From contig NZ_QUZK01000037.1 of assembly GCF_003410055.1 (NCBI RefSeq), positions 62,001 through 126,000 of the forward strand: a stretch of 64,000 bases of DNA, in the 5' to 3' direction. The notes beneath the pieces were generated by a model that had not been told where the DNA came from, did not search any database, and was given only the letters and a program-made list of their open reading frames with translations. Below are positions 25,050 to 47,950 of the stretch, piece after piece. Both the position numbers and the translations under genes were made by a program. Position 1 is the stretch's first letter. Each line of letters begins with the position of its first letter. This DNA comes from Wenzhouxiangella sediminis. GTDB lineage: Bacteria; Pseudomonadota; Gammaproteobacteria; Xanthomonadales; Wenzhouxiangellaceae.

Positions 25050-25065
25050 TGCACGCGCCGTGCCA
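25050..25065 (-). promoter_or_regulatory. Sigma-54 (-24/-12) promoter of glnA
   Basis: TGGCACGGCGCGTGCA on the minus strand matches TGGCACG-N4-TTGCW except that the -12 element begins with G. The predicted start is near 25039, 40 bases before the glnA ATG. A perfect dyad GAATTGTTCAATTC (25134-25147) is centred about 101 bases upstream of that start, where an activator could bind, though it is not a textbook NtrC site. Confidence 0.8.
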
Positions 25066-33257: not shown

Positions 33258-33267
33258 ATGTCGTGTA

Positions 33268-33558
33268 TTGACTCACGCAGAGCCGCGGGGATCGCGGAGT
33301 CCGCAGAGAAGAGCAAAACCATTAAAACGCAAAGACGCGAAGACGCAAAGTAAAAGGCATAACCTATAACCACGGAAGGCACGGAATGGCACGGAAAGGA
33401 TTGCCAAGAGAATTCTTAATTCCGTGCGGTTCCGCGTCTTCCGTGGTTTCAATGTTCTTGGTTTTTTCTTCGCGTCTTTGCGTCTTTGCGTTTCAAAGAT
33501 TTCGATTTTGACTTTCTCTGCGCACGCTCAGACCTCCGCGGCTCTGCGAGAGACTCAA
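33268..33558. repeat. Large imperfect palindromic repeat block
   Basis: Between the S9 gene and the export cluster is a 538-bp gap (33258-33795). Its first part is an imperfect inverted repeat of about 290 bp. The left arm carries CGCAGAGCCGCGG, CGCAAAGACGC units and CACGGAA units; the right arm carries the complements in reverse order, ending in CCGCGGCTCTGCG. A related structure lies at 47765-47950. I see no protein-coding gene in it. The rest of the gap holds the orphan direct repeat, two dyads and the sigma-54 promoter listed separately. Confidence 0.8.
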
Positions 33559-33574
33559 TTCCAGGGCGTTCCTG

Positions 33575-33614
33575 GAGACACACTCGACGAGGAACTGCAT
33601 CCGGGGATGATCGA
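33575..33614 (+). repeat. Left copy of a 40-bp direct repeat flanking the export cluster
   Basis: This 40-base stretch matches 47031-47070 at 37 of 40 positions, with an uninterrupted 25-base identity (33578-33602 against 47034-47058). At the right-hand site it is the 3' end of the tauE-type gene (DHPWMQFLVECVS); read on the minus strand the left copy still spells DHPRMQFLVECVS but belongs to no gene. Confidence 0.85.
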
Positions 33615-33659
33615 GCGTGGTCGGTCGCCTGGTTCGGGCGCGAGTGTTCGGAATCGGGA

Positions 33660-33743
33660 TTGTGCATCCCACAAGCGAACAATTCCGCGTGGGCGGGCGA
33701 CGCCTTCATCGGGCAAGGCGCCCTGATAGCGCCTGATCTATCA
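33660..33743. promoter_or_regulatory. Two candidate activator dyads upstream of the sigma-54 promoter
   Basis: TTGTG-N5-CACAA (33660-33674) and TGATAG-N8-CTATCA (33724-33743) are perfect short dyads centred about 128 and 61 bases before the predicted start of the export cluster. Enhancer sites of NtrC-family activators commonly lie in this range. Either could also be chance. Confidence 0.35.
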
Positions 33744-33768
33744 ATGAGTTAACGCTCCGGTCGCGGTT

Positions 33769-33784
33769 TGGCACGCCGCGTGCT
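33769..33784 (+). promoter_or_regulatory. Sigma-54 (-24/-12) promoter of the export cluster
   Basis: TGGCACGCCGCGTGCT matches TGGCACG-N4-TTGCW with one mismatch, the same G-for-T change as the glnA promoter here. Standard spacing (C at -12 is 33783) predicts a start at 33795, one base before the adaptor ATG at 33796. Confidence 0.75.
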
Positions 33785-33795
33785 TATGGGTGTGC

Positions 33796-35049
33796 ATGGA
33801 TATCGCACGCCCCGAACTCAAACACCGCAAGCGCGTCAAGCGCCTGATCTGGATCGCCGCCGGCCTCGTCGCCCTGGTGATCGTTGCCGTGGCCCTGGCC
33901 TCGCTCGAGCCTGCCGCGCCGAGCGTGGATCGCGCTGCCGTCTGGACGGACACCGTCGAGCGCGGCGAAATGCTGCGCCAGGTGCGCGGTCCCGGCGTGC
34001 TGGTGCCGCGGGAAATCCGCTGGGTGGCTGCCACGACCGAGGCTCGCGTCGACCGGGTTCTCGCCAAGCCGGGCGCAATCGTCGAGCCGGACACCATCCT
34101 CGTCGAGATGAGTAACCCCGAGTTGGCGCAGCAGGTGCGCGAGGCCAACTCCGAATTGGTTGCCGCCGAAGCGGACTATGCCGCCCTGGAGGTGCGCCTG
34201 CAAAGCCAGGTGCTCGATCAGCGCGCGACCATGGCCCAGGTGCGTTCGGATGCGCGTGGTGCCCGACTGCAGGCCGAGGCCGAAGCCCAGCTGGTCGAGC
34301 AGGGCATCCTGCCGCGCATCCAGTACCAGCGCTCGCTACTCGATGCCGACCAGCTCGAGGAGCGACTGGCGATCGAGGAGGAGCGTTCGGCCCAGTTCAG
34401 GGATTCGGTCGAGGCCCAGCTTCGTGCCGCCCGGGCCCGTATCGACCAGCTCGAGAACGTCGTGGAGTTGCGCCGGCAGCAGCTGGGCAACCTCACCGTA
34501 CGCGCCGGCATCAACGGCGTGCTGCAGGAGCTCAGCGTCGAGGAAGGGCAGCGCCTGACGCCGGGGCAGAACATCGCCCGCGTGGCGCGGCCCGACACCC
34601 TGATCGCCGAGCTGCGTATCGCCGAAACCCAGGCCAAGGATGTGCAGCTCGAGCAATCGGTGGAAGTCGATACGCGCAACGGCGTGGTCGCCGGCCGGGT
34701 GATGCGCATCGATCCGCGCGTGGCCAACGGCACCGTCCAGGTCGACGTGGAGCTGACCGGTGAACTGCCGCCGGGCGCGCGGCCCGACCTGTCGGTCGAC
34801 GGCACGATCCTGATCGAGAAACTGGAAGACGTGCTCTTCGTCGGCCGGCCGGCCTATGGCCAGCCCGAGAGCACGGTGCGCCTGTTCCGTGTCGATCCAC
34901 AGACGCAGACCGCCGTCCGTGTGCCGGTGGAACTCGGCCGCAGCTCGGTCAACGTTATCGAGGTGCGACAGGGCCTGCAGGTCGGCGACACCGTGATCCT
35001 GTCCGACACGTCCGCCTGGGACGAATACGACCGGATTCGCCTGGAATGA
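33796..35049 (+). CDS. Periplasmic adaptor subunit (HlyD/MacA type)
   Basis: A 417-residue membrane fusion protein: a basic cytoplasmic start, one membrane helix (about 17-36), a lipoyl-like half (EMLRQVRGPGVLVPREIRWV), a long coiled coil (about 110-225), and beta-barrel parts (ELRIAETQAKDVQLEQSVEV). It should link an inner-membrane ABC exporter to an outer-membrane channel; no TolC-type gene is in the window. The ATG at 33796 is the only sensible start ahead of the membrane helix (a GTG at 33790 would lie before the predicted transcript start). The sigma-54 promoter implies nearly leaderless translation. Confidence 0.9.
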   Translation: MDIARPELKHRKRVKRLIWIAAGLVALVIVAVALASLEPAAPSVDRAAVWTDTVERGEMLRQVRGPGVLVPREIRWVAATTEARVDRVLAKPGAIVEPDTILVEMSNPELAQQVREANSELVAAEADYAALEVRLQSQVLDQRATMAQVRSDARGARLQAEAEAQLVEQGILPRIQYQRSLLDADQLEERLAIEEERSAQFRDSVEAQLRAARARIDQLENVVELRRQQLGNLTVRAGINGVLQELSVEEGQRLTPGQNIARVARPDTLIAELRIAETQAKDVQLEQSVEVDTRNGVVAGRVMRIDPRVANGTVQVDVELTGELPPGARPDLSVDGTILIEKLEDVLFVGRPAYGQPESTVRLFRVDPQTQTAVRVPVELGRSSVNVIEVRQGLQVGDTVILSDTSAWDEYDRIRLE

Positions 35050-35059
35050 GGCCGCGCCG

Positions 35060-35170
35060 ATGTCGCTCTCCCTTCTCATCGATGTCTACGGCTGCCTTAA
35101 CTGCCTGGCGGCGCACGCCTGGGCCCTGGCGATACCGGTGGTGCTTGGCGCCATCCGCCAGCGCAGGTGA
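35060..35170 (+). CDS. Possible 36-residue hydrophobic peptide
   Basis: A small open frame starts 11 bases after the adaptor stop. GAGG (35048-35051) stands eight bases before its ATG. The peptide has a CLNC pair, a hydrophobic core (about residues 15-31) and a basic end (IRQRR). It could be a small membrane subunit, or just chance coding capacity in a 160-bp gap. I know of no homologue. Confidence 0.35.
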   Translation: MSLSLLIDVYGCLNCLAAHAWALAIPVVLGAIRQRR

Positions 35171-35209
35171 GCGAAGTCCGATTCTCTTTCTACGTATGGA
35201 ACGCATGAC

Positions 35210-35989
35210 ATGAACGACACCCAACGACCCCTGATCCAGCTTTCCGAAGTGACCAAGGTCTTCCTGACCGACGAGGTCGAGACCCACGCCCTTGGCGGCG
35301 TTCACCTCGAGGTCGGCGAAGGCGAGTACGTCTCGATCTCCGGACCGTCGGGTTGCGGCAAGTCGACGCTGCTGTCCATCCTGGGCCTGCTCGACACGCC
35401 CACAGGCGGCCGCTACGAGCTCAATGGCACGCCGGTGGAAAGCCTCAGTGCCGCCGACCGCGCCCATGTGCGCAATCGCGAGATCGGGTTCATCTTTCAG
35501 GCCTTCAACCTCATCGGCGACCTCAGTGTCTTCGAAAACGTCGAGCTTCCGCTGACCTACCGCGACGGCATCGGCAAGGCCGAGCGAAAACAGCGGGTGG
35601 TCGAAGCCCTGGAGCGCGTCGGCATGGCCCATCGCCTGAGACACTATCCCGCGCAGCTCTCCGGCGGCCAGCAGCAGCGCGTGGCCGTGGCCCGTGCCCT
35701 GGTCGGCAAGCCCTCGATCCTGCTCGCCGACGAGCCCACGGGCAACCTCGACTCGCGCAATGGCGAAGCGGTGATGGCGCTGCTCGACGAGCTCCATCGC
35801 GGCGGCGCGACGATCTGCATGGTCACCCACGACCCGCGCTACGCCGAGTTCGCCGAGCGCAAGATCCACCTCTTCGACGGACGGGTCGTCGACGAGGAAA
35901 CGCTCAACCGCCTGCGCGCCGAGGAAGAACAGCGCATCGAGGAGCAGATCGCCTCGCGCAAACCGGCCGCGGCCGATTCGGCGCCCTGA
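35210..35989 (+). CDS. ABC exporter ATPase 1 (MacB/LolD type)
   Basis: A 259-residue ATPase with every expected motif: Walker A GPSGCGKST (45-53), signature LSGGQQQRV, Walker B ILLADEPT, D-loop GNLDS with D181, and switch His in MVTHD. The family energises MacB/Lol-type mechanotransmission exporters. A charged C-terminal tail of about 35 residues (EEEQRIEEQIASRKPAA) is longer than usual. It is the likely partner of the three permeases that follow. Confidence 0.92.
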   Translation: MNDTQRPLIQLSEVTKVFLTDEVETHALGGVHLEVGEGEYVSISGPSGCGKSTLLSILGLLDTPTGGRYELNGTPVESLSAADRAHVRNREIGFIFQAFNLIGDLSVFENVELPLTYRDGIGKAERKQRVVEALERVGMAHRLRHYPAQLSGGQQQRVAVARALVGKPSILLADEPTGNLDSRNGEAVMALLDELHRGGATICMVTHDPRYAEFAERKIHLFDGRVVDEETLNRLRAEEEQRIEEQIASRKPAAADSAP

Positions 35990-36064
35990 CGCTCCCCGTG
36001 AGTTTCCCTGCTTCTCCCAACCGCCGCAGCCCACGGCCTGTACGCCGCTGACAGGAGCACTCGC

Positions 36065-38503
36065 ATGCACATCCTCCACGACTTCAAGTTCGCAAAACGG
36101 CAGATCGCCAAGCGGCCGGGTTTCGCCGCTGCGGTCATCCTGACCCTGGCGCTGGGCATCGGCGCCAACAGCGCGATATTCAGCATGATCAACGGCCTCA
36201 TGCTCAAGCCCTTGCCCTACCCGGAAGGGGAGCAGCTGGTAGCCGTCTATAACACCTATCCGAAGATGGGCTTGCCGAACGCGGGCGTTTCGGTTCCGGA
36301 TTACATCGATCGGCGCGACCGTACCGAAGTCTTCCAGTCGACGGCGATGTACACCTGGAACGGCATGAACCTGACCGGCGAGGGCAATCCCGAGCGTCTG
36401 CTCGCGTTGCGGACCACGCCTTCGCTTTTTGAGGTGCTGCGCATAAAGCCCATGTTGGGCAGAACCCTCGGCGAGGAGCACGCCGAGATCGGCAACGACC
36501 GGGCCGTCGTGCTGAGTCACGGCCTGTGGCAGGCGGCCTTCGGCGCCCGCGAGGGCATCGTGGGTGAAGACATCCGGCTCAACGGCGAGCCGTACGAGGT
36601 CGTGGGCGTGATGCCGGCGGGCTTCGTGTTTCCCAACCAGAATGTGCAGCTCTGGATGCCGTTCGCTTTCACGCCGCAACAGATGAGCGACGAGGAGCGG
36701 GGACGGGAGTTCTCGAACATGATCGCTCGCCTCAAGCCCGGCGCCTCGACCGAGCAGGCCCAGCAGCAGGTCGACCGCATCCACGAGATCAATCGCGAAC
36801 GCGCGCCCGCCGGTGTCGCGGAGTTCTGGGCCAACTCCGGCTTCGGCGGGCGCGTGGTCAACTACCGGGAGGAACTGATCGGCGAACTGCGTGGTCCGCT
36901 TTGGCTGCTTCAGGTGGCGGTGGCCTTTGTGCTGCTTATCGCTTGCGCAAACGTCGCCAACCTGATGCTGGCCCGCGTGACCGCGCGACGCCGCGAATTG
37001 TCCGTTCGCAAGGCCATGGGGGCGGCCTCGCGACGAATCGTTGCACAGATTCTGTGCGAGAGCGGCTTGCTCGCCCTACTCGGCGGCTTCGCCGGACTGC
37101 TGGTGGCCTGGTACGGACTCGAACTGCTCACCCTGGCGGGCCTGGGGTCGACGAATGAACTGTTCGATATCCGCCTCGACGGTACGGTCTTTGCCTTCGC
37201 CCTCGGCATCGCGATGACCACGGGGGTGCTGTTCGGCGTTGTGCCGGCACTGGCGGCCGTTCGCGGCAACACCGCCGAGGTGCTCAAGGAGGGCGGTCGC
37301 AGCGCCAGCAGCGGGCGCGGCGCACAGCTTACGCGCTCGACCCTGGTGGTCGCACAGGTGGCCATCGCTGCGATGCTGCTGGTCGGCTCCGGGCTGTTGA
37401 TTCGCAGCTTCATGGAGCTACAGGGCACGGATGCCGGCTTCAATCCCGAAGGCGTGCTGACCGCCGGGCTGTCCCTGCCCGACAACCCCTACGATGATCC
37501 GGCCGCGATGCGCGATTTCCACGATCGCCTCGTGGCGCGGCTGGAGGCCATTCCCGGTGTCGTCGCCGCCGGCATGACCAACGTCGCGCCCTTCGAGGGG
37601 GGTAACTCCCAGTCGTCCTACAGCATCGAGGGCTACGAGCCCGGGCCGGGCGAGAACTCGCCGCACGGCATGGTGCGCCGGGCCGATAGCGGCTATTTCG
37701 AGGCCATGGAGATTCCGGTGCTGAGCGGACGCGCGTTCACGCCCGAGGACGGACCCGACAATCCGGTCGCTGTCATCGACGAGATCCTGGCACGTCGCTA
37801 CTTCCCCGACGAGAACCCGATCGGCCGTCGAATCGGATTCGACGACGAAGAGAATCCCGAGTGGTTCACCGTCGTCGGCGTGGTCGGCACGGTCAAGCAC
37901 TCCGGCCTCGACGAGCAGGTCAGCAAGGAAACCTACTATCTGCCCATTCGCAACGCCGCCGTCGGCAGCCCCACCCTTGTGCTGCGCACGGCCATGCCCC
38001 CGGCCGGCCTGATCGATCCCCTGCGGGAAGCCGTGCGCGAAATCGATCCGCAGCTGCCGCTGACGCGCATCCGCACGATGGAAGAGATGATCGACGTCTC
38101 GTTGCAGACGCGCCGCGCGCCCATGCTTCTGCTGATGGTCTTTGCCGGTGTTGCCCTGGCGCTGTCGGCCATTGGCATTTACGGCGTGCTGGCTTATTCG
38201 GTCAGCCAGCGAACCGGCGAACTGGGCGTGCGCATGGCACTGGGTGCTCGGATCGGCGACATCCTGCAGCTGGTGATGCGACAGGGCGGGCGCCTGGTCG
38301 CGATCGGATTGGCTCTCGGGCTGGTCGCCGCACTGGCCCTGACCGGAATGATCTCCTCGCAGCTCTACGGCGTGAGTCGTTTCGATCCCTTCGTACTGAT
38401 TGGCGTTGTCGTGTTCCTCGGGTTGATCGCGGCCCTGGCCTGCCTGATTCCCGCCTGGCGTGCGGCCTGCGTCAATCCGATCGAAGCCCTTCGCTACGAG
38501 TGA
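36065..38503 (+). CDS. MacB/FtsX-type permease 1 of the export cluster
   Basis: An 812-residue permease of the duplicated-FtsX (ADOP) architecture: one membrane helix near residues 20-40, a periplasmic MacB-PCD-like domain, an FtsX domain with three helices (about 275-400), another helix (about 420-440), a second periplasmic domain and a second FtsX domain ending in AWRAACVNPIEALRYE. The hallmark LTLALGIGANSAIFSMING is at the start. GGAG lies seven bases before the ATG. Confidence 0.92.
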   Translation: MHILHDFKFAKRQIAKRPGFAAAVILTLALGIGANSAIFSMINGLMLKPLPYPEGEQLVAVYNTYPKMGLPNAGVSVPDYIDRRDRTEVFQSTAMYTWNGMNLTGEGNPERLLALRTTPSLFEVLRIKPMLGRTLGEEHAEIGNDRAVVLSHGLWQAAFGAREGIVGEDIRLNGEPYEVVGVMPAGFVFPNQNVQLWMPFAFTPQQMSDEERGREFSNMIARLKPGASTEQAQQQVDRIHEINRERAPAGVAEFWANSGFGGRVVNYREELIGELRGPLWLLQVAVAFVLLIACANVANLMLARVTARRRELSVRKAMGAASRRIVAQILCESGLLALLGGFAGLLVAWYGLELLTLAGLGSTNELFDIRLDGTVFAFALGIAMTTGVLFGVVPALAAVRGNTAEVLKEGGRSASSGRGAQLTRSTLVVAQVAIAAMLLVGSGLLIRSFMELQGTDAGFNPEGVLTAGLSLPDNPYDDPAAMRDFHDRLVARLEAIPGVVAAGMTNVAPFEGGNSQSSYSIEGYEPGPGENSPHGMVRRADSGYFEAMEIPVLSGRAFTPEDGPDNPVAVIDEILARRYFPDENPIGRRIGFDDEENPEWFTVVGVVGTVKHSGLDEQVSKETYYLPIRNAAVGSPTLVLRTAMPPAGLIDPLREAVREIDPQLPLTRIRTMEEMIDVSLQTRRAPMLLLMVFAGVALALSAIGIYGVLAYSVSQRTGELGVRMALGARIGDILQLVMRQGGRLVAIGLALGLVAALALTGMISSQLYGVSRFDPFVLIGVVVFLGLIAALACLIPAWRAACVNPIEALRYE

Positions 38504-38540
38504 TCGAAGCGCCGCGGCAGAACCTCTAAAAGGATATCCC

Positions 38541-40937
38541 ATGACCCATTTTTTCGCCGACCTTCGCTACGCCGCTCGCCAGCTGATGCGACAACCCGGC
38601 TTCACGCTTGTGGCCCTCCTGACCCTGGCGCTGGGCATCGGCGCCAACACGGCAATGTTCAGCGTGGTCAACGGCACCATGCTCGCGCCGCTTCCCTATC
38701 CTGATGCGGGACGCCTGGTTCGCGTCTGGGAGACCACGCCCGAAGGTCACCGCTTTTCCGTGTCCGAGCCCAATTTCCTCGATTTCCACGACCGCTCTGA
38801 GCAGTTCGAGTCGCTGGCGGCGATGAAGGATGTGTCGTTGACCTTCGTCGACGGCGGCCAGGCTGCACGCATCCCCGGTTTAGCGGTTTCGCGCGAATTC
38901 TTCTCAGTGCTGGGGCACTCGCCCATCGCCGGCCGAGAATTCACGAGTGAAGAGGACCAGCCGGGTTCGGCGGCGGATGTCGTCGTACTCGGACACGATC
39001 TGTGGCAGCGCCGTTTCGGGGGCGATCGCGACCTCGTTGGGCGGACGATCCGAGTCGAGGGTCGGGCCCGCACGGTTGTCGGGGTCATGGGGCCGGACTT
39101 CGGCCTGCTCGACAGCGAATACTGGGTTCCCCTGGCGGCCGATCCGGCCTCCGACCGAGGCGACCACTGGCTGGCCATGATCGGCCGCTTGCGTCCACGT
39201 GCGACCCTGCAACAGGCCGAAGCCGAACTGCAGCGCATCGCGGAGGGTATCGGGCTGCAACATCCGACCCTGGCTGGCTGGGGCGTCGAGATGATGCCCT
39301 TTTCCCGCTGGCTGGTTCGCGACTCGTTCCGGACCACGGCCGTGCTGCTGCTCGGGGCCGTGGCATTCGTGCTGTTGATGGCCTGCGTGAACCTGGCCAA
39401 TCTCGTCTTTGCCCGGGCCAGCCGCCGGCAGGGTGAACTCGGCCTGCGGCTGGCGCTGGGGGCGGGGCGTGGCCGGCTGGTCCGGCAGCTGCTGGTCGAG
39501 GCCGTGCTCCTTTGCGGGCTCGGCCTCGGGCTGGGCATCGCGCTGGCCTACTGGGGAGTTTTAGCGCTGCAGGCTTTCGGTTCGGGTTTCATTCCGCGCC
39601 TGGAGTCGGTGCGCATCGACGGCACTGTCATGGCCTTTGCCGTCGGCATCGGCCTGGTCACGGTCGTGCTGTTCGGTCTGCTGCCGGCGCTTCGAATCTC
39701 CGGACTGGATCTCAATGCGACCCTGCGTCAGGGCGGGCGCACGGGTGAGCGCGGCGACCAGCGCCGCGTACGCGATGCGCTGGTGGTCGTGCAGATCGCG
39801 ATGGCCATGCTGCTGCTCGTCGGCGCCGGGCTGCTCCTGCGAAGTTTCTGGCAGTTGCAGTCCACTGATCCCGGCTTCGACGCCGGGAACGTCGTCTACG
39901 CCGAGATCCAGCTCGGCGATGATTACGCCGAACCCTGGCAGAAAGTCGTGTTCTTTCGGGAGTTGATTGCTGACCTCTCATCCCGGCCGGGCATTGCCTC
40001 GGCCGGTGCGACGGTCATCACGCCGTTCAGTGGCTCGAACCTGATGAACGACGTCACGCCCGTCGACCGGGCCGAGTCGATCGGTGCGCAGGGGTTCATG
40101 CAGGCCGCCTGGCGCACGGCTACGCCCGATGCTTTCGAAACCCTGGGCCTGCCGCTGATCGAGGGTCGCTTATACGACTACACCGATCGCTGGGACGGTC
40201 CCCGAGTGGCCGTCATCACCCGCACCATGGCCGAACGAATGTGGCCGGACCGGCCGGCGGTGGGGCAGGAGTTCTATTGGGGCAGCAACACCGGCGAACC
40301 GCTGCGGGTGATCGGCGTGGTCGACGACCTCCGGGACGTCGAGATGAGCAGTGATGTGCAGCCGGTGATGTTCCTACCCTACCATCACATGCCCTGGCCC
40401 AAGATGACGCTGCTCGTTCGCGGCAGCGGGCAGGTGGATTCCATCGCCCGGCTGGTCCAGAGCCGGGTGCGCGCGCTGGACGAGTCTCTGCCGGTTCCGG
40501 CTGTGGCTTCCCTGCAAGACCAGGTGGCGTCGGTCGCTGCCGGTCCGCGTTTCAGAACCTTCCTGATGGCGTCGTTCGCCTGCCTGGCCCTGCTGCTGGC
40601 TGCGGTCGGCATCTACGGCGTGATGGCCTACAACGTCAGCCAGCGCACGCGCGAAGTCGGCCTGCGCATGGCGCTTGGAGCTGCTCCGGCTTCGATCTCC
40701 GGCATGCTGCTTCGGCGCGGCGCCGTACTGACGATCCTCGGCACGCTCATCGGCCTGCTCGGTGCGTGGGCTATCACTCGCCTGATCCAGGGGGTGCTGT
40801 TCGCAACCGAACCACTCGACCCGGCCGCGACCGCGACCGCTGCTTTCGTGCTGGCGCTCACCGCGCTGACGGCGTGCTGGTTGCCGGCGCGGCGGGCTGC
40901 GCGCATCCATCCCACGGAGGCCCTTCGCCATGAATGA
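38541..40937 (+). CDS. MacB/FtsX-type permease 2 of the export cluster
   Basis: A 798-residue paralogue of permease 1 with the same domain order and the start LTLALGIGANTAMFSVVNG; it ends in ARRAARIHPTEALRHE. The ATG at 38541 follows AAGGA with correct spacing; an upstream in-frame extension from 38460 reads through the end of permease 1 and is not used. It overlaps the next permease gene by eight bases, so the two are translationally coupled. Confidence 0.92.
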   Translation: MTHFFADLRYAARQLMRQPGFTLVALLTLALGIGANTAMFSVVNGTMLAPLPYPDAGRLVRVWETTPEGHRFSVSEPNFLDFHDRSEQFESLAAMKDVSLTFVDGGQAARIPGLAVSREFFSVLGHSPIAGREFTSEEDQPGSAADVVVLGHDLWQRRFGGDRDLVGRTIRVEGRARTVVGVMGPDFGLLDSEYWVPLAADPASDRGDHWLAMIGRLRPRATLQQAEAELQRIAEGIGLQHPTLAGWGVEMMPFSRWLVRDSFRTTAVLLLGAVAFVLLMACVNLANLVFARASRRQGELGLRLALGAGRGRLVRQLLVEAVLLCGLGLGLGIALAYWGVLALQAFGSGFIPRLESVRIDGTVMAFAVGIGLVTVVLFGLLPALRISGLDLNATLRQGGRTGERGDQRRVRDALVVVQIAMAMLLLVGAGLLLRSFWQLQSTDPGFDAGNVVYAEIQLGDDYAEPWQKVVFFRELIADLSSRPGIASAGATVITPFSGSNLMNDVTPVDRAESIGAQGFMQAAWRTATPDAFETLGLPLIEGRLYDYTDRWDGPRVAVITRTMAERMWPDRPAVGQEFYWGSNTGEPLRVIGVVDDLRDVEMSSDVQPVMFLPYHHMPWPKMTLLVRGSGQVDSIARLVQSRVRALDESLPVPAVASLQDQVASVAAGPRFRTFLMASFACLALLLAAVGIYGVMAYNVSQRTREVGLRMALGAAPASISGMLLRRGAVLTILGTLIGLLGAWAITRLIQGVLFATEPLDPAATATAAFVLALTALTACWLPARRAARIHPTEALRHE

Positions 40938-43308
40938 CATTCGTCAGGCGTTTCGTCAGCTCGTCTCCCGGCCCGGTTTTACGGCCATCGTGGTTGTGAC
41001 CTTCGCGCTGGGTATCGGGGCGACAACCGCTATCTTCAGCATGGTCAATTCCGCTTTGATTGCTTCATTGCCTTACTCGCAGCCCGACCAGCTGGTCCGC
41101 GTGTTCGAGCAGCGTCCCGATGGAGGTCGCAACACGGTATCCGGCGGTGCTTTCAAAGACTGGAGAGAGTTCAATACGACGTTCGAATCCCTGGCTGTTT
41201 TCGACAATGCGCGCATGAACCTCACCGGTGCAGGTACGCCGGAGCGCCTGGCGGGCTTGTATGTCTCCTCTGAATTCCTGTCCGTCCTGCGCGTGCAGCC
41301 CGCGATCGGCCGCGACTTTTCACCGGATGCCGACACAGCCGGCGGCAGCAATCAGGTCGTCATACTCACGCATCGATTCTGGCAGCAACGCTTCAGCGGG
41401 AACGAGGATGCCATCGGTCAGGCCATGCTGCTCGATCAGACGCCCTATACGATCATTGGGGTGCTGCCGCCGGGTGCCCTATTGCACGACGAAGCGAACT
41501 TCCTGGTTCCGATGGTGATCACCGACGACCCGGACCTCTGGGGGCGCGAGGGGCATTGGCGCGATGTCATCGGTCGAATTCGTCCGGATGTGACCATCGA
41601 CCAGGCGCAATCGGATCTGCGAACCATCAAGCAGCGGCTCGGCGCCGAATACCCATCATTCAAGCAGGATTGGAGTGTCATCCTGTTCACGGCGCAGGAA
41701 ATCCACACCGGCAACGTGCGAATGACGATGTTCATTCTCTTCGGCACTGCGCTCTTCGTTCTGCTGATTGCCTGCGCCAACGTTACTAACCTGTTTCTGG
41801 CGCGCGGTGCCTCGCGCGCTCGTGAAATGGCGGTGCGCTCCGCACTCGGGGCCAGTACTTCACGGATCGTGAGGCAATGGCTGGTTGAAAGCATCCTGAT
41901 TGCTTTGCTGGGGTGTGCGGCCGGACTGTTTGTGGCCGTATTTGCGATCAAGCTGTTGACGCAGATGGTCGCCGACGCGCTTCCCCAGGTTTTGCAGCCA
42001 CACCTGGATACTGGGGTGTTGGTATTCTCGGTGATCCTTGCATGCGGTTGCGGGGTTCTTTCCGGAATACTGCCAGCGCTGCGGGCCAGTCGGTGCAATC
42101 TCTCGGGCAGCCTTCGAGAAGGCGAACGCGGCTCGGTCGGGAGAGACAGAAGACGCTCGCAATCGGCGCTTCTGTTCTCGCAATTCGCGCTCACGCTGGT
42201 GCTGCTGATCGGTGCGGGCTTGCTGCTGCGCAGCTTCACCCTGTTGTCGGAAGTCGACCCCGGCTTCGAACCTCGCCAGTCGTTCGCGTTCGACTTGTCG
42301 CTTCCCGAAGCGAAGTATCCGGATCCGGAAAGCCGGCTTCGGATCGTCGATGAACTGATCACGCGCATCGAGACCATACCGGGCGTTGAATACGCCGGGG
42401 TGACGTCCTACGTGCCGCTCAGCAATCGTGGTGCCACGGAGTACTTGAGTCGCGCTGACCGGCCATTCAGTTCCGACTATGTGGTCGGGTACGAAGCCGT
42501 CGATCGAGATTATTTCGCCGCCCTGGGGGTCGAGTTGATGCGGGGTCGCCTCATCACCGACGCCGAGAACCGGGTCGGCGCACCGCGAGTGCTGATGATC
42601 AATAGTCGTGTGGCCCGAGATTTGTACCCGGACGAGAACCCGATCGGCAAGCAACTGAGATTCTTCGATCGACCCTGGGAAATTGTTGGTGTGGTCGAAC
42701 CGGTTCGGCATACGGCCGTGCATATCGAGCCACCACCCAGGATCTATTCTGCGCATGTGCATTCACCCTGGTCCACCAGTATCGTTGTGCGCACGGCTTT
42801 GCCCCCGACCGGCCTCATCGAGACCGTCAGACAGACGGTGCTGGACGTCGACCCCGATCAGCCGATTGCCAATGTACGAACAATGGAGCAGGCTGTTGGC
42901 GAATCTCTGTCCCGGCACCGAACAGTGCTCATACTCTTGGGCTCCTTCGCCGGCGTTGCCATCGTCCTTGCCTGTGTGGGTATCTATGGTGTGATGTCTT
43001 ACACCATGAGCCAGAGCCAGCGTGAATTCGGAATCCGTACGGCTCTGGGTGCTACAAGCCGGGATATGGTGCGAATGGTCATCACGAGAGGCATGAAGCC
43101 GGCGCTCCTGGGAATACTGACAGGCGCCGCCATCGCCCTGCTCCTGACAGGGTTGGCGGAATCCATGCTCTTCGAGATTCACGCTCGAGATCCGCTTGTG
43201 TTTGGTGTCGCAACTGCCGGTTTGGCCATCATGGCCACGCTGTCGGTCTGGATTCCTGCGCGCCGCGCCTCCAGGGCCGATCCGGCGACGACTCTTCGCG
43301 ATGAATGA
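40930..43308 (+). CDS. MacB/FtsX-type permease 3 of the export cluster
   Basis: A 792-residue paralogue with the hallmark TFALGIGATTAIFSMVNS and the end ARRASRADPATTLRDE. Its base composition is lower in G+C than its neighbours: I count 102 G+C in the 180 bases 42901-43080 (about 57%). It starts inside the 3' end of permease 2. On the minus strand within it (42436-42421) there is a perfect sigma-54 consensus that may be chance. Confidence 0.92.
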   Translation: MNDIRQAFRQLVSRPGFTAIVVVTFALGIGATTAIFSMVNSALIASLPYSQPDQLVRVFEQRPDGGRNTVSGGAFKDWREFNTTFESLAVFDNARMNLTGAGTPERLAGLYVSSEFLSVLRVQPAIGRDFSPDADTAGGSNQVVILTHRFWQQRFSGNEDAIGQAMLLDQTPYTIIGVLPPGALLHDEANFLVPMVITDDPDLWGREGHWRDVIGRIRPDVTIDQAQSDLRTIKQRLGAEYPSFKQDWSVILFTAQEIHTGNVRMTMFILFGTALFVLLIACANVTNLFLARGASRAREMAVRSALGASTSRIVRQWLVESILIALLGCAAGLFVAVFAIKLLTQMVADALPQVLQPHLDTGVLVFSVILACGCGVLSGILPALRASRCNLSGSLREGERGSVGRDRRRSQSALLFSQFALTLVLLIGAGLLLRSFTLLSEVDPGFEPRQSFAFDLSLPEAKYPDPESRLRIVDELITRIETIPGVEYAGVTSYVPLSNRGATEYLSRADRPFSSDYVVGYEAVDRDYFAALGVELMRGRLITDAENRVGAPRVLMINSRVARDLYPDENPIGKQLRFFDRPWEIVGVVEPVRHTAVHIEPPPRIYSAHVHSPWSTSIVVRTALPPTGLIETVRQTVLDVDPDQPIANVRTMEQAVGESLSRHRTVLILLGSFAGVAIVLACVGIYGVMSYTMSQSQREFGIRTALGATSRDMVRMVITRGMKPALLGILTGAAIALLLTGLAESMLFEIHARDPLVFGVATAGLAIMATLSVWIPARRASRADPATTLRDE

Positions 43309-43332
43309 CCTGTCGCCAATCCGGAGATTCCC

Positions 43333-43413
43333 ATGCAACTGAAAACATTGATCGGCGAAAGACGGCCTGCCTTTGTTGGCGCCATGCCGGTAGGGCGCCA
43401 TGAGCTTCGTTAG
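43333..43413 (+). CDS. Possible 26-residue leader peptide or gene remnant
   Basis: A short frame with GGAG six bases before its ATG lies between permease 3 and ATPase 2 and overlaps the ATPase start by 14 bases. It could couple translation of the ATPase, or be the remains of a lost gene. The peptide (MQLKTLIGERRPAFVGAM at its start) is not recognised. Confidence 0.3.
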   Translation: MQLKTLIGERRPAFVGAMPVGRHELR

Positions 43414-44098
43414 TCCGCGCACTCTCCTTCGCCTTCGCGGACTGGAGAAGTCCGTGCCGCACCAGGGCGGGCGGCTCTGGCTGCTCCGTCAGATCGACCT
43501 GGACGTGGGCGAGGGCGAGTTCCTGAGCATTGTTGGGCCCTCGGGGTCGGGCAAGACAACCCTACTCAATATCCTCGGCCTGTTCGACAGTGAATTCCGA
43601 GGCGAGTACGAGTTCGCCGGCCGCCCGGTCGGAGCGATGAAGTCCGCGCAGCGCCAAAAGCTGGCGCGCGACTTCATCGGCTACGTCTTCCAGCAGTACC
43701 ATTTGCTCGAGGACCTGACCGTGGCCGAGAACCTCGAAGTTCCCCTGAGCTATCGCGAACTGCCGCGCAGCGAGCGCAAGGCGCGGGTGGCCGACATGCT
43801 CGACCGCTTCGGTATCGTCGGCAAGAAAGGTCTTTACCCGAGCCAGCTCTCCGGCGGGCAGCAGCAGCTGGTGGCCGTGGCCCGGGCTGTGATCGGGCGA
43901 CCGGCGGTAATCCTCGCCGACGAGCCGACCGGCGCGCTGCACTCGAGCCAGGGCGAGATGATCATGGACCTGTTCGCCGAACTGAACGCCGAGGGCATCA
44001 CCGTGATCCAGGTGACCCATAACGAGGTCAACGCCCGTCGCGGCCATCGCAGCATCGAGCTGTTCGACGGCTGGATGGAAGCGGTCGGGGCGGCCTGA
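43400..44098 (+). CDS. ABC exporter ATPase 2 with altered D-loop
   Basis: A 232-residue ATPase of the same MacB/LolD family as ATPase 1: Walker A GPSGSGKTT (46-54), signature LSGGQQQLV, Walker B VILADEPT, switch His in QVTHN. The D-loop reads GALHS with His181 where ATPase 1 and the family have Asp (GNLDS). It may pair with one of the permeases, or form an asymmetric dimer with ATPase 1. Confidence 0.9.
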   Translation: MSFVSPRTLLRLRGLEKSVPHQGGRLWLLRQIDLDVGEGEFLSIVGPSGSGKTTLLNILGLFDSEFRGEYEFAGRPVGAMKSAQRQKLARDFIGYVFQQYHLLEDLTVAENLEVPLSYRELPRSERKARVADMLDRFGIVGKKGLYPSQLSGGQQQLVAVARAVIGRPAVILADEPTGALHSSQGEMIMDLFAELNAEGITVIQVTHNEVNARRGHRSIELFDGWMEAVGAA

Positions 44099-44135
44099 TG
44101 GTGGTAGCATTCCGGCAGTCTTCCGGTTCTTGGCC

Positions 44136-45512
44136 ATGAGTCGATCCAGCCCTTCGCCCGCCCGCATTCTCGTGGTCGACGATCAGCGCGACGTGCTCGA
44201 GGCGCTGCGCTTGCTGCTCAAGGGCGAGGGGTTCCTTGTCGACCTGGTCAACTCGCCGGCCGCGGCGCTCGAAGCGCTGCAACACGACGACTTCGACGCC
44301 GTCATTGCCGATCTCAACTACACCCGCGACACCACATCAGGGGAGGAGGGGCTCGAGCTCGTCGAATGTATCCAGTCCCTGGATTCCCGGTTGCCGGTGA
44401 TCGTGATGACGGCCTGGGCGACCATCGGCGTGGCGGTCGAGGCCATGCGCCGCGGTGCACGGGATTTCATCGAGAAGCCCTGGGACAACCATCGGCTGCT
44501 GTCGGTGCTCAACACGCAGGTGGAACTCGGTTGTGCACTGCGCCGCTCCGACCGCCTGGCGGCCGAAAACGATCTTCTCCGCCAGGCCGGAGACGAGGGC
44601 TTCATCGCCGACTCGCCGGCCATGCAGGAGGTCGTGCGCTTGATACACCGCGTCGCCCCGGCAGACGTGGCGGTGCTGATCACCGGCGAACCCGGGACGG
44701 GCAAGGGTGTCGTTGCGCGCAAGATCGAACAACTCTCCAAGCGTCACGGCAAGCCGTTCATTTCGGTCAACATGGGGAGCGTGCCCGAGGCCGTGTTCGA
44801 GAGCGAAATGTTCGGGCACGTCAAGGGTGCTTTCACGGACGCCAGCCAGAACCGGACCGGCCGGTTCGAACTTGCCGACGGCGGGACGCTGTTTCTCGAC
44901 GAGATCGGCAACGTACCGGCGAGCCAGCAGGCCAAGCTGCTTCGCGTTCTCGAAACCGGGGAGTACGAACCGGTCGGTTCCTCGCGCACCCAGCGTGCCG
45001 ATGTGCGACTGATCAGTGCCACCAATGCCGATCTCGATGAGATGGTCCGGGCGGGAGAGTTTCGCAAGGATCTATTCTTCCGCGTCAACACGGTCGAGAT
45101 TCCCCTGCCGCCGCTTCGCGAGCGCCGTGAGGACATCCTGCCGCTGGCCCGGCACGCATTGGCGCAACTGGCCTCACGATACGGCGGATCGCCCGAAGGC
45201 TTCGAGCGCTGCGCGCTGGAAGCCATGCAAGCCTATGCCTGGCCCGGCAACGTCCGTGAACTCCTTCACGTGATCGAACGGGCCGTGTTGCTCAGCAAGG
45301 GCCCGCGGATCGCCGCGGAAGATCTTCGCCTGGATCATGCGCCCGCGCCCGCAACGAGCCTGGAGCACATGACACTCGACGACGCCGAGCGCGTCTTGAT
45401 ACGCAATGCGCTCCACCGCACAGGGGGCAACGTCAATCAGGCGGCCGAAGACCTCGGCGTGAGCCGCAGTGCCCTGTATCGCCGAATCGAAAAGTACGGC
45501 CTGCTGAAGTAG
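44136..45512 (+). CDS. NtrC-family sigma-54 response regulator of the export cluster
   Basis: A 458-residue regulator: receiver domain with D59 (AVIADLNY), AAA+ domain with Walker A GEPGTGKG, sigma-54 loop GAFTDA at 231-236 (Asp for the usual Gly), Walker B TLFLDEIGN, and a Fis-type helix-turn-helix (GNVNQAAEDLGVSRSALYRRI). The loop change is conservative enough that sigma-54 activation is likely. Its probable target is the -24/-12 promoter before the adaptor gene. A TTG six bases upstream is a poorer start. Confidence 0.93.
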   Translation: MSRSSPSPARILVVDDQRDVLEALRLLLKGEGFLVDLVNSPAAALEALQHDDFDAVIADLNYTRDTTSGEEGLELVECIQSLDSRLPVIVMTAWATIGVAVEAMRRGARDFIEKPWDNHRLLSVLNTQVELGCALRRSDRLAAENDLLRQAGDEGFIADSPAMQEVVRLIHRVAPADVAVLITGEPGTGKGVVARKIEQLSKRHGKPFISVNMGSVPEAVFESEMFGHVKGAFTDASQNRTGRFELADGGTLFLDEIGNVPASQQAKLLRVLETGEYEPVGSSRTQRADVRLISATNADLDEMVRAGEFRKDLFFRVNTVEIPLPPLRERREDILPLARHALAQLASRYGGSPEGFERCALEAMQAYAWPGNVRELLHVIERAVLLSKGPRIAAEDLRLDHAPAPATSLEHMTLDDAERVLIRNALHRTGGNVNQAAEDLGVSRSALYRRIEKYGLLK

Positions 45513-45554
45513 TCTTGGATTCATACGCTCGGTGACCTCCCGCAGGCAGCCAAT

Positions 45555-46877
45555 GTGAAGGAAGACAGACGTATTCCGTTCGAGCTTCGGCTCCTGGTGC
45601 TTTGCCTGGCCGGCGGACTGCCTGCCCTGCTTGGCCTCGGCCTGGTGCTCGCGTCGGGCGATTTCGCGCCCGATCTTTCCATCGCCCTGGTGTCGGCGGC
45701 TTCGCTCGCCTGGCTCGTCTTCGGCTTCGCCGCTCGCCGCTTCGTCATCTATCACCTGCAGACTCTTTCCAACTTGCTGGAAGCTCTGCGCGAAGGGGAC
45801 TATTCCTTGCGCGGTCGCCGGGCCCGATACAAGGATTCGCTGGGCGAAGTCATGCGCGAAGTCAACCAGCTCAGCGAAACGCTCCGCGCCGAGCGACTGG
45901 GTGCCCGCGAAGCCAGCGCGCTCCTGATGAAGGTGGTCGACGCCGTCGATATCGCGGTTCTCGCCTTCGACGGGCGCAAGAGACTGCGGCTGGTCAATCC
46001 CGCCGGCGAGCGTCTGCTCGGGCGCTCCGAATCCGCATTGCGCGACCAGACCGCTGCCGCGCTGTCACTCGAGTCCCTGCTGGAGGGTCCGGAGCGGCAG
46101 ACGATACAACACCGCTTTGCAGCCGGTAGCGGTCGGTGGGAAGTGCGAATTTCCCGTTTCCGGGAGGGGGGTATTCCGCACTACCTTCTGGTCGTAACCG
46201 ACCTCAGCCGGGCTCTGCGCGAGGAGGAACGAAAGGCCTGGCAGCGCCTGATTCGAGTGATCGGTCATGAACTCAACAACTCGCTGGCGCCGATCAAGTC
46301 CATGAGCGGGACCCTGCAAAAACTGCTTTCCCGAGAGCCGTTGCCGGAAGACTGGCGTGAGGACACGGCGCGCGGACTGGACGTAATTGGCAATCGTGCC
46401 GATTCACTCGGCCGCTTCATGACCGCCTACAGCATGCTTGCGCGCCTGCCGTCGCCGAGAAGAAGCAAGGTCGATCTGCGCCCCCTGGTCGAACGAGTCG
46501 CCGCGCTCGATCAGCGAGTCCCGGTATTGTGCAGGGGTGAATCGCTGTCGATCCACGTCGACCGAGACCAGATCGAACAGATGCTCATCAACCTGGTCAA
46601 GAACGCCGTGGATGCTGCCGAGCAAACGGGGGGTGAAGTTCGAGTGGAGTGGCGAAGCGAGGGAGACGGCGTTCGGATCTCGGTGATCGACTCCGGGCCG
46701 GGGATTTCCAACCCGGACAACCTGTTCGTGCCTTTCTTTACCACCAAGCCCGAAGGGACGGGTGTGGGCCTGGTGCTGTGCCAGCAGATCGTCGAGGCCC
46801 ACGGCGGCGTGCTGACGCTGGTCAATCGAGACGACGCGCGGGGTTGCGTGGCGACGGTTGAACTGCCGGTGTCGTGA
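45555..46877 (+). CDS. Membrane histidine kinase of the export cluster
   Basis: A 440-residue kinase starting at GTG: two membrane helices (about 12-33 and 41-63) with almost no periplasmic loop, a HAMP-like linker, a PAS region (about 125-215), H-box VIGHELNNSLAPIKSM with H238, and ATPase motifs NLVKNAVDAAEQ, DSGPGISN and TKPEGTGVGLVLCQQI. The lack of an outside domain suggests it senses something within the membrane or via the transporter itself, as in intramembrane-sensing kinases next to ABC exporters. Confidence 0.92.
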   Translation: MKEDRRIPFELRLLVLCLAGGLPALLGLGLVLASGDFAPDLSIALVSAASLAWLVFGFAARRFVIYHLQTLSNLLEALREGDYSLRGRRARYKDSLGEVMREVNQLSETLRAERLGAREASALLMKVVDAVDIAVLAFDGRKRLRLVNPAGERLLGRSESALRDQTAAALSLESLLEGPERQTIQHRFAAGSGRWEVRISRFREGGIPHYLLVVTDLSRALREEERKAWQRLIRVIGHELNNSLAPIKSMSGTLQKLLSREPLPEDWREDTARGLDVIGNRADSLGRFMTAYSMLARLPSPRRSKVDLRPLVERVAALDQRVPVLCRGESLSIHVDRDQIEQMLINLVKNAVDAAEQTGGEVRVEWRSEGDGVRISVIDSGPGISNPDNLFVPFFTTKPEGTGVGLVLCQQIVEAHGGVLTLVNRDDARGCVATVELPVS

Positions 46878-46965
46878 AGGGGGAGGGGTCAGGATTCAGG
46901 GGCCCGACGACCAGGATGGCGACGTCACACATAGCTCACGCGTGTCCGGACCCGCTACATCGCCC

Positions 46966-46990
46966 GTCGCCGATGCGACCGCGACTTACG
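46966..46990. repeat. Short palindromic repeat, degenerate copy
   Basis: GTCGCCGATGCGACCGCGAC followed by TTACG resembles the copy at 2248-2272 with a few changes. It lies 16 bases before the intact copy at 47007. Confidence 0.55.
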
Positions 46991-47006
46991 CGGGCATGGC
47001 GAAATC

Positions 47007-47030
47007 GTCGGGGACGCGGCCCCGACCTAC
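47007..47030. repeat. Short palindromic repeat, copy 2, carrying the tauE-type stop codon
   Basis: GTCGGGG (47007-47013) and CCCCGAC (47020-47026) form a perfect stem; the next bases CTAC contain, on the minus strand, the TAG stop of the tauE-type gene (47027-47029). Confidence 0.8.
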
Positions 47031-47737
47031 GAAACACACTCGACGAGGAACTGCATCCAGGGATGGTCGATGGCGTGTGATAACCACGGGCCGGCGGCGA
47101 TCAGCACGCCGGTAGTTGCCAGCAGGGCAGCGGCCGTCCAGCGCAGGCCGGGGCGGTTGATGGCCGAGCGGAATTTGAGCATCACGAGCCCGCCGCCCAG
47201 CAATAGCGGCACGGTACCCACGCCGAAGGCCAGGATCATGGCGGTGGTGGCCAGCGGGTCGGCGAGCATGACGGCGGTGGCCACCACCGTGTAGAGCAGG
47301 CCGCAGGGCAGCAGGCCCCACAGCAGGCCCAGGCCGATGGCGTTGTCCAGGGATTCGACCGGCAGGAACTTCGAGAAAACGGGCATCATGCGCCGGGTCA
47401 GCGGCGCGGCGAGTTGCCCGGTGAGATCGCGAAAGCGGCTGGGCAGGGCGATGTAGACCGCCATGAGCACGATGATGCCGCCCAGGGCCCAGCGCATGAC
47501 CTGCGGGGCGGCCTCGGGCACGGCGGCGGCCGGCAGCATGCCCAGGCCGGTGGCGAGCAGGCCGATGGCGAGATAACTCGAAACGCGCCCCAGGTGAAAG
47601 CCGATCGCCAGCCCACCGCGGCCCGAGGGAATCTGCGCGTGCAGCAATCCCACGATCCCGCCGCACATACCCAGACAGTGCGTCGACCCGAACAGCCCGG
47701 CCAGCAGGCCGGTCAACAGCGCGGTTTCAACGTTCAT
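47027..47737 (-). CDS. TauE/SafE-type membrane protein of the cbb3 locus
   Basis: A 236-residue protein with six or so membrane helices and the marker GSTHCLGMCGGIVGLL near the start. Proteins of this type follow ccoS in many cbb3 loci and are thought to help copper or heme handling during oxidase assembly. It is the last gene of the minus-strand cco series. Its stop codon is provided by a dispersed repeat, and its last 13 codons are duplicated at 33575-33614. Confidence 0.85.
   Translation of the reverse strand: MNVETALLTGLLAGLFGSTHCLGMCGGIVGLLHAQIPSGRGGLAIGFHLGRVSSYLAIGLLATGLGMLPAAAVPEAAPQVMRWALGGIIVLMAVYIALPSRFRDLTGQLAAPLTRRMMPVFSKFLPVESLDNAIGLGLLWGLLPCGLLYTVVATAVMLADPLATTAMILAFGVGTVPLLLGGGLVMLKFRSAINRPGLRWTAAALLATTGVLIAAGPWLSHAIDHPWMQFLVECVS
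47031..47070 (+). repeat. Right copy of a 40-bp direct repeat flanking the export cluster
   Basis: Identical at 37 of 40 positions to 33575-33614 and in the same orientation. Here it is coding sequence, the 3' end of the tauE-type gene. The two copies bracket 13.4 kb containing exactly the eight genes of the export cluster and its promoter. Confidence 0.85.
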
Positions 47738-47764: not shown

Positions 47765-47950
47765 AAAAAACCTTTAAAACGCAAAGACGCAAAGACGCGA
47801 AGGAAAACACGAAAAAGTAATCATTTATCGCACGGAATGGATAAAGCACTGCGAAACGCTAGTCTTCTTGATTCTCTATTCCCGATTCTGGGTTCAATCC
47901 TTTCTTTCTTTGCGTCTTTGCGTTTTCAAGGTCTTGGTGTTCCGTGTTCT
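47765..47950. repeat. Second palindromic repeat block, running into ccoS
   Basis: Left arm 47774-47800 (AAAACGCAAAGACGCAAAG and on) and right arm 47901-47936 (complement, TTTGCGTCTTTGCGTTTTC) form an inverted repeat of the same type as 33268-33558. The right arm is inside the ccoS reading frame. Confidence 0.75.

Follow-up and report, generated by a model that had tools for sequence, protein, structure and literature searches.

A self-regulated export operon inserted at the end of a tauE-type gene in Wenzhouxiangella sediminis, with a predicted leaderless mRNA from a sigma-54 promoter

How did a complete export system come to lie within the cbb3-hemN-fnr locus of Wenzhouxiangella sediminis, between two short direct repeats, one of which is the end of a gene? 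We address this question in a stretch of 64,000 nt (hereafter the window) from a draft genome of 3.5 Mb in 54 contigs. The initial annotation of this DNA had described eight genes framed by 40-bp repeats and had proposed that they were integrated at the 3' end of a tauE-type gene, recreating that end. We suggest, with a probability of about two in three, that a 13.4-kb self-regulated export operon of the MacB/ADOP type (33615-47030) entered the end of the tauE-type gene through a single crossover, and that its pump is made from a leaderless mRNA driven by a sigma-54 promoter.

The repeats are real. Positions 33575-33614 and 47031-47070 match in the same orientation at 37 of 40 bases, with a longest identical run of 25, and they are the best pair listed when the 2.5-kb flanks are compared (blastn, E = 2e-11). 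A BLAST search of the W. sediminis genome with 33540-33700 gave these two copies only and no third copy of the 40-mer; the next-best matches are of 16-25 bases with E of 0.07 or more. As had been read at first, the right copy is the end of the tauE-type gene, and the left copy is an orphan that still codes for DHPRMQFLVECVS. The product of the gene is a 236-aa membrane protein whose C-terminus (VECVS followed by the stop) is encoded by the right copy; the left copy has no stop at the expected place. The protein matches Pfam DsbD_2 (PF13386), not TauE proper, and no NCBIfam model matches it at E ≤ 0.001. The parts of the locus are as follows.

33258-33614, no strand: original intergenic DNA between the S9 peptidase gene and the tauE-type gene, with the displaced original 3' end of the latter (left repeat, 33575-33614); collinear with the empty sites of relatives G009 and G010; stop codon lost.
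33615-47030, plus strand: inserted segment of 13,416 bp, bounded by the repeats and absent from the relatives with an empty site.
47027-47737, minus strand: intact tauE/DsbD_2-type gene, with the right repeat (47031-47070) forming its 3' end; the counterparts in G009 and G010 are equally long and also end in VECVS.

The evidence for an insertion comes from relatives. The tauE-type protein is present in 48 of the 61 genomes searched, our own included, and we compared its neighbourhood at one locus in each of the 23 relatives whose protein is about 60% identical or more (in G022, one of two loci). The stretch covered 3' of the gene is 0.7 kb in G013 and 1.1 kb in G012, where the contigs end, and reaches up to about 19 kb elsewhere. 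Within these stretches, the exporter cluster lies next to tauE in none of the 23 relatives; five of them (G024, G015, G007, G002 and G034) have weak matches (26-38% identity) at a distance of several kb, each to one ATPase, regulator or kinase protein. When the flanks of the window are joined at the repeat, 1042 of 1157 aligned bases are identical to G009 and 968 of 1150 to G010. Both alignments run continuously through the end of tauE, and their large gaps fall only in the intergenic part that contains palindromic repeats. The empty sites are thus found at the very point where the initial annotation had placed the integration. Since the left copy continues into intergenic DNA shared with G009 and G010, it is the former end of the gene, now displaced, and the right copy has taken over that role. 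Taken together, the empty site, the displaced end and the collinear flanks show that the cluster entered the 3' end of the tauE-type gene within this genome's own lineage and that the gene end was restored.

The surroundings of the site are as follows. In the window an S9 peptidase gene (30771-33257) is placed between hemN and the left repeat. Such a gene is found 3' of tauE in 10 of the 23 relatives (G002, G005, G009, G010, G016, G022, G024, G025, G026 and G028), and the S9 gene therefore lies outside this insertion. The gap between the two genes ranges from 55 bp to 3.3 kb, being 0.6 kb in G024 and at most 0.25 kb in seven others; the extra DNA in the gaps of G016 (2.1 kb) and G026 (3.3 kb) indicates that this gap tolerates insertions. 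A hemN-type gene stands 3' of tauE in four relatives, namely G003, G006 and G020 (26-27% identity) and G034 (68%), and neither gene was found there in the remaining nine. The adjacency of the tauE-type gene, hemN and fnr, which the initial annotation had expected from Pseudomonas-type genomes, is seen in G034.

Between the repeats lies one complete system, as had been stated, with eight genes that are all on the plus strand and opposite to ccoI, ccoH and ccoG.

33796-35049, plus strand: hlyD/macA-type periplasmic adaptor, with a predicted leaderless mRNA start; TIGR01730 over cut-off, PF16576 and PF13437 (scanned as 33790-35049).
35210-35989, plus strand: ABC ATPase 1 of the MacB/LolD type; PF00005; best NCBIfam model NF038007 (DarD), below cut-off.
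36065-38503, plus strand: ADOP permease P1, the core permease common to the closest clusters; TIGR03434 at 946 bits; 68-71% identical in G026, G063 and G065.
38541-40937, plus strand: ADOP permease P2; TIGR03434 over cut-off (scanned as 38517-40937; start read from the sequence).
40930-43308, plus strand: ADOP permease P3; TIGR03434 over cut-off.
43400-44098, plus strand: ABC ATPase 2; PF00005; not seen in the clusters of G026, G063 and G065.
44130-45512, plus strand: NtrC-type sigma-54 activator (response regulator); Receiver, Sigma54_activat and HTH_8 domains.
45555-46877, plus strand: sensor histidine kinase; HATPase_c and PAS_8 over cut-off, HisKA just below.

The cargo represents a variation on exporters already known. 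All three permeases belong to TIGR03434, with 946, 884 and 867 bits against a curated cut-off of 622.3, and a sequence match links P1 to MacB structures (5lil, E = 5e-19). The system shares with MacAB-type exporters and ADOP permeases an HlyD-type adaptor, a MacB-type ATPase and permeases of the FtsX/MacB_PCD kind. Unlike the MacAB type, it has the ATPase and permease on separate genes, permeases that are internally duplicated and present in three copies, and its own sigma-54 two-component control. The MacB model for a fused ATPase-permease (NF007826, above 966 bits) is not reached by these separate genes: the permeases score 113, 129 and 108 bits and the ATPases 224 and 203. There is also a resemblance to the darobactin exporter (NF038007, NF038008 and NF038010), of the adaptor to DarC, of the ATPases to DarD and of the permeases to DarB, but all fall below the curated cut-offs (DarC 84 of 450, DarD 250 and 218 of 375, DarB 28, 31 and 37 of 700 bits). 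The N-terminus of the kinase is hydrophobic over residues 7-61 and, by hydropathy, leaves room for a very short loop only, which suggests that the kinase senses within the membrane. A tiny-loop sensor kinase beside an FtsX-family ABC transporter is also the arrangement of the Bce-type modules of Firmicutes. Unlike those modules, the present system has a periplasmic adaptor and an NtrC/sigma-54 regulator.

The promoter of the operon, which had also been anticipated, is a sigma-54 site placed very close to the first gene. The start of hlyD is likely the ATG at 33796 and not the GTG at 33790, and the two elements of the control region are these.

33769-33784, plus strand: sigma-54 -24/-12 promoter TGGCACGCCGCGTGCT, 11/12; it ends 11 bases before the ATG at 33796, whose A stands 13 nt after the -12 C.
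33645-33660, plus strand: weak candidate upstream activator site TGTTCGGAATCGGGAT, 9/12 to TGTYCG-N4-CGRACA.

This geometry is conserved across the order. HlyD homologues at E ≤ 1e-100 occur in at least 88 of its 398 genomes, at a minimum of 89 loci (with four candidates scored per genome). In all 89 upstream regions we took the best-scoring site between -150 and +12, with ties given to the site nearest 13, asked for at least 9/12 with GG in place, and measured the distance from the -12 C to the A of the hlyD ATG. This distance is 12 (10 loci), 13 (66 loci) or 14 (10 loci) in 86 of the 89. Twenty of the 86, together with the three exceptions, were known before the test was framed; the 66 others were new, and every one of these new loci fits. 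In the 64 kb of the window, both strands together hold 36 sites of at least 9/12 with GG and GC in place, and at such a density chance is no explanation for the hlyD geometry. All 86 loci have Asp as their second codon, written as GAT in 52 and GAC in 34; the use of both codons indicates that translation begins at that ATG. In 80 of the 86, a C stands at base -1. Shine-Dalgarno 5-mers are found in 0 and 4-mers in 2 of the 86, a feature which is weak alone since 4-mers are likewise missing from several further genes of the operon in the window. Because -24/-12 positions are counted from the transcript start (PMC4842269), the predicted hlyD leader is 0-2 nt. We therefore predict from the promoter position that the hlyD mRNA is leaderless in these related operons.

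Sigma-54 promoters are not leaderless in general in these genomes. Our control set consists of the 82 distinct sites of at least 11/12 in all sequence examined, of which 20 do not precede an ATG-Asp frame at the hlyD distance. Among the ordinary cases, sites at 46-54 nt precede a glutamine synthetase-like gene in the window, G010, G016, G024 and G025. The copy in the window, at 25065 on the minus strand, scores at least 11/12 and stands 52 nt before a 469-aa open reading frame, which from its N-terminus we take to be glnA-like. At the rpoN locus the site is 23 nt before the open reading frame. One site outside the hlyD set has an ATG at 12 nt; it is internal to an hlyD gene of G015, and we attribute it to chance. 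The window and G025 thus hold both kinds of promoter. A gene for RpoN is present in the genome.

Upstream of the promoter, a dyad TGTYCG-N4-CGRACA of at least 10/12 is present in 66 of the 86 regions compared with 3.9 of 86 in shuffles, a contrast that is somewhat flattered because the motif was derived from the same sequences. A site similar to the candidate in the window stands at the same distance (-151) in G026 and G063. The candidate is located within the segment, at 30 bases from the left edge, and all of the control region would therefore have come with the segment. Under the circuit that we propose, the kinase would detect an envelope-active compound, possibly through the transporter, and would phosphorylate the NtrC-type regulator, which would then bind upstream and open the sigma-54 promoter. 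The transcript would begin at the AUG of hlyD with a leader of 0-2 nt, and the adaptor, ATPases and permeases would form pumps that expel the compound. With good confidence, we consider that an export operon family found throughout the order is transcribed as leaderless mRNA from sigma-54 promoters, that the distance between promoter and AUG is under selection, that the enhancer-binding regulator switches the pump on and the pump is translated without a Shine-Dalgarno leader, and that the segment in the window is one transferred copy with the whole circuit, from activator site to stop.

How did the segment arrive? The insertion falls in the last ~40 coding bases of the tauE-type gene, and a single crossover within the repeat is the course that we favour. 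The gene end would have recombined with a 40-mer resembling it, carried by incoming DNA that was circular or joined in some other way, through a recombinase acting in trans or one that has since been lost. Three positions differ between the repeat copies. Compared with the outgroups G009, G010, G024 and G016, the right copy agrees at the two positions toward the 5' side of the gene, and the left copy agrees at the third, toward the 3' end. The native-looking bases are thus split between the copies as one crossover between slightly different 40-mers would leave them.

The initial annotation had seen here the pattern of a site-specific island. Its insertion, its repeats and the restored gene end hold, while the island class is unproven. 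The locus has in common with islands that tyrosine recombinases place at gene 3' ends the direct repeats at the edges, the recreated gene end and the empty site. Unlike them, it has no integrase among its eight genes, contains the export operon alone and shows no sign of site reuse. As had been noticed, no integrase is visible: profile scans with NCBIfam and Pfam find no recombinase among the eight genes, and the six tyrosine recombinases (Phage_integrase) over the Pfam cut-off in the genome are all on other contigs. With no recombinase in the element, we do not class it as an integrase-type island.

Several observations weigh against the reading of a single crossover that delivered a sigma-54-driven leaderless pump. 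For the crossover, polarity cannot be established from three positions, which chance alone would split in this way about 1 time in 8, and G016 has the base of the left copy at one of the 5'-side positions and a third base at the last. Neither a recombinase nor a remnant of one nor a circular form is in evidence. The other clusters in G026, G063, G065 and G036 have no comparable repeat at their edges, the longest being of 15 bases (93%) or 14 identical bases with E of 0.01 or more in 1.3-2.5 kb of flank per side. In the covered tauE stretches of the 23 relatives there is also no convincing second copy of the tauE end, the strongest candidate being a 16-base match in G020 (E = 6e-5, 5-kb stretch) and the longest one of 21 bases at 90% in G010; the spot therefore shows no sign of repeated use for attachment. 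In viral_contigs the tauE-end pattern has 0 matches, and its three matches in genome_contigs are taken as the tauE loci of G010, G016 and G009 and add nothing new. For the pump, the hlyD promoter is absent from three of the 89 loci (G015, one of two in G028, and G030). There a kinase gene lies 0.4-0.5 kb upstream of hlyD on the same strand, and hlyD may be internal to the operon, yet G018 and G025 likewise have the kinase upstream, at 0.15-0.17 kb, and have kept the promoter. More distant hlyD genes (35-38% identity) depart from the pattern, as seven of eight loci with a start codon have no site above 8/12 and one has it at 39 nt; one further locus has no start codon. On plasmids the distance is 35 nt in Rahnella, 40 nt in Pseudoalteromonas (a 9/12 site) and 8 nt in Xenorhabdus. 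Finally, the activator score in the window is weak, since about 24 of 86 shuffled regions reach 9/12 as their best.

Some of these points would suit another route, in which linear foreign DNA was taken up by natural transformation or a similar process and both joins were made at the same short homology by homology-facilitated illegitimate recombination, with no dedicated recombinase. Such a route agrees with the shortness of the repeat, with eight genes that include no recombinase and with the four clusters elsewhere that lack a comparable flanking repeat. However, it needs a donor in which the cluster stands beside a tauE-like end, and none was seen, the clusters of G026, G063 and G065 having other neighbours. 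We consider this route unlikely, though it deserves to be kept in mind.

Insertion with a 40-bp target-site duplication, by a transposition-like event or break repair, is a poorer candidate, and we regard it as quite improbable. The copies would first have been identical and would later have diverged; they are still 93% alike, and the relic would have been free to mutate. But 40 bp is long for a target duplication, the segment has no transposase, no inverted repeat of more than 9 bases joins the outer 300 bases of its two ends, and the two-sided spread of native-looking bases is slightly better explained by a crossover. It is very improbable that the cluster is ancestral here and was lost in relatives by recombination between the repeats, because, although a deletion would likewise leave one repeat copy, its absence beside tauE in all 23, over the stretches covered, would need many losses, and the intergenic DNA shared by G009 and G010 runs into an intact gene end. 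A chimeric contig is hardly credible even for a draft in 54 contigs, as the junctions lie inside a 209-kb contig, a 40-bp repeat seldom misleads an assembler, the G+C content of the segment (64.9%) is near that of its flanks (66.8 and 67.5%) and its closest relatives are in the same family.

Related clusters are sporadic. The kinase is found at E ≤ 1e-100 in 4 of the 43 genomes of the family, the window included. In the stretches covered, no match to S9, hemN, tauE or cco genes lies near the clusters of G026, G063 and G065. Their neighbours differ: parB and a short-chain dehydrogenase gene in G026, other genes in the other two. The number of permeases is two in G026, two in G063 and three in G065, and none of these clusters has a second ATPase. 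In the clusters of G058 and G049 we count about seven permeases apiece, and in these arrays further sigma-54 sites stand 51-57 nt 5' of extra permease-sized genes, with ordinary leaders (L114 14695 and 17329; L119 18211).

Beyond chromosomes, HlyD has no match in phages at E ≤ 1e-10, and the kinase has matches at E ≤ 1e-60 in 13 plasmid records, all with less than 60% identity. One plasmid record each from Rahnella, Pseudoalteromonas and Xenorhabdus holds a five-gene core in the same order. We rejected these plasmid clusters as donors and regard them as distant relatives. On the Rahnella and Xenorhabdus plasmids a phosphopantetheinyl transferase gene follows the core (L149 16109-16798; L151 15203-15934) with biosynthetic genes nearby, a hint that pumps of this kind serve natural products.

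Two kinds of palindrome accompany the locus. A second repeat set, consisting of ACGCAAAGACGC / CACGGA palindromes at 33315-33509 and 47767-47941, also brackets the cluster. It belongs to a dispersed, nested intergenic family with at least 107 match rows in the genome, palindrome strands counted separately. The left site of G009 and G010 has the CACGGA part only. We rejected these palindromes as a cause of the insertion because that part is already in the empty sites. The other kind abuts the right repeat.

47007-47030, minus strand: GTAG-type palindrome GTAGGTCGGGGCCGCGTCCCCGAC; five exact-pattern copies in the genome against 0 for the reversed-pattern control.

With its GTAG foot, its palindrome and its repetition in the genome, this element qualifies as a GTAG-type repetitive extragenic palindromic (REP) sequence. 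REP-type elements are not known to leave a 40-bp duplication. We rejected REP transposition as the main cause of the move for this reason and because no Y1 (RAYT) transposase was found in the genome, where PF01797 has no match. The foot of the palindrome supplies the TAG stop codon of the tauE-type gene, as the termini of GTAG REP sequences often do for flanking open reading frames (PMC3733652). The GTAG foot and short stem are as described in that source; unlike the repeats it describes, the present family has only five exact-pattern copies, with no Y1 transposase found.

How new is the promoter arrangement? Sigma-54 control as such is not, since PMC12316311 predicts it for COG0577 permeases in Gammaproteobacteria; the word "leaderless" is absent from the main text of that paper. 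We found no published report of the sigma-54/leaderless layout among the titles and abstract openings listed, a search with subscription papers mostly outside it, and the supplementary tables of PMC3616915 and PMC4842269 may hold single cases. PMC4842269 ties leaderless genes to an RpoD-like motif, with an extended -10 before leaderless mRNAs, and states that specific promoters for leaderless mRNAs are undescribed. According to PMC3847290, leaderless mRNAs are poorly conserved between species. In contrast to what these two papers describe, here the spacing between one sigma-54 promoter and the AUG is preserved in 86 of 89 loci.

The insertion offers a clean case, with the empty site seen in relatives, of an entire export operon and its regulation entering the end of a gene while bringing no machinery for the move. 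What should surprise specialists is the conserved leaderless geometry, which predicts the transcript start to within ~2 nt. If it is true, a leaderless start perhaps lets the pump be made when the compound that it expels impairs the ordinary start of translation.

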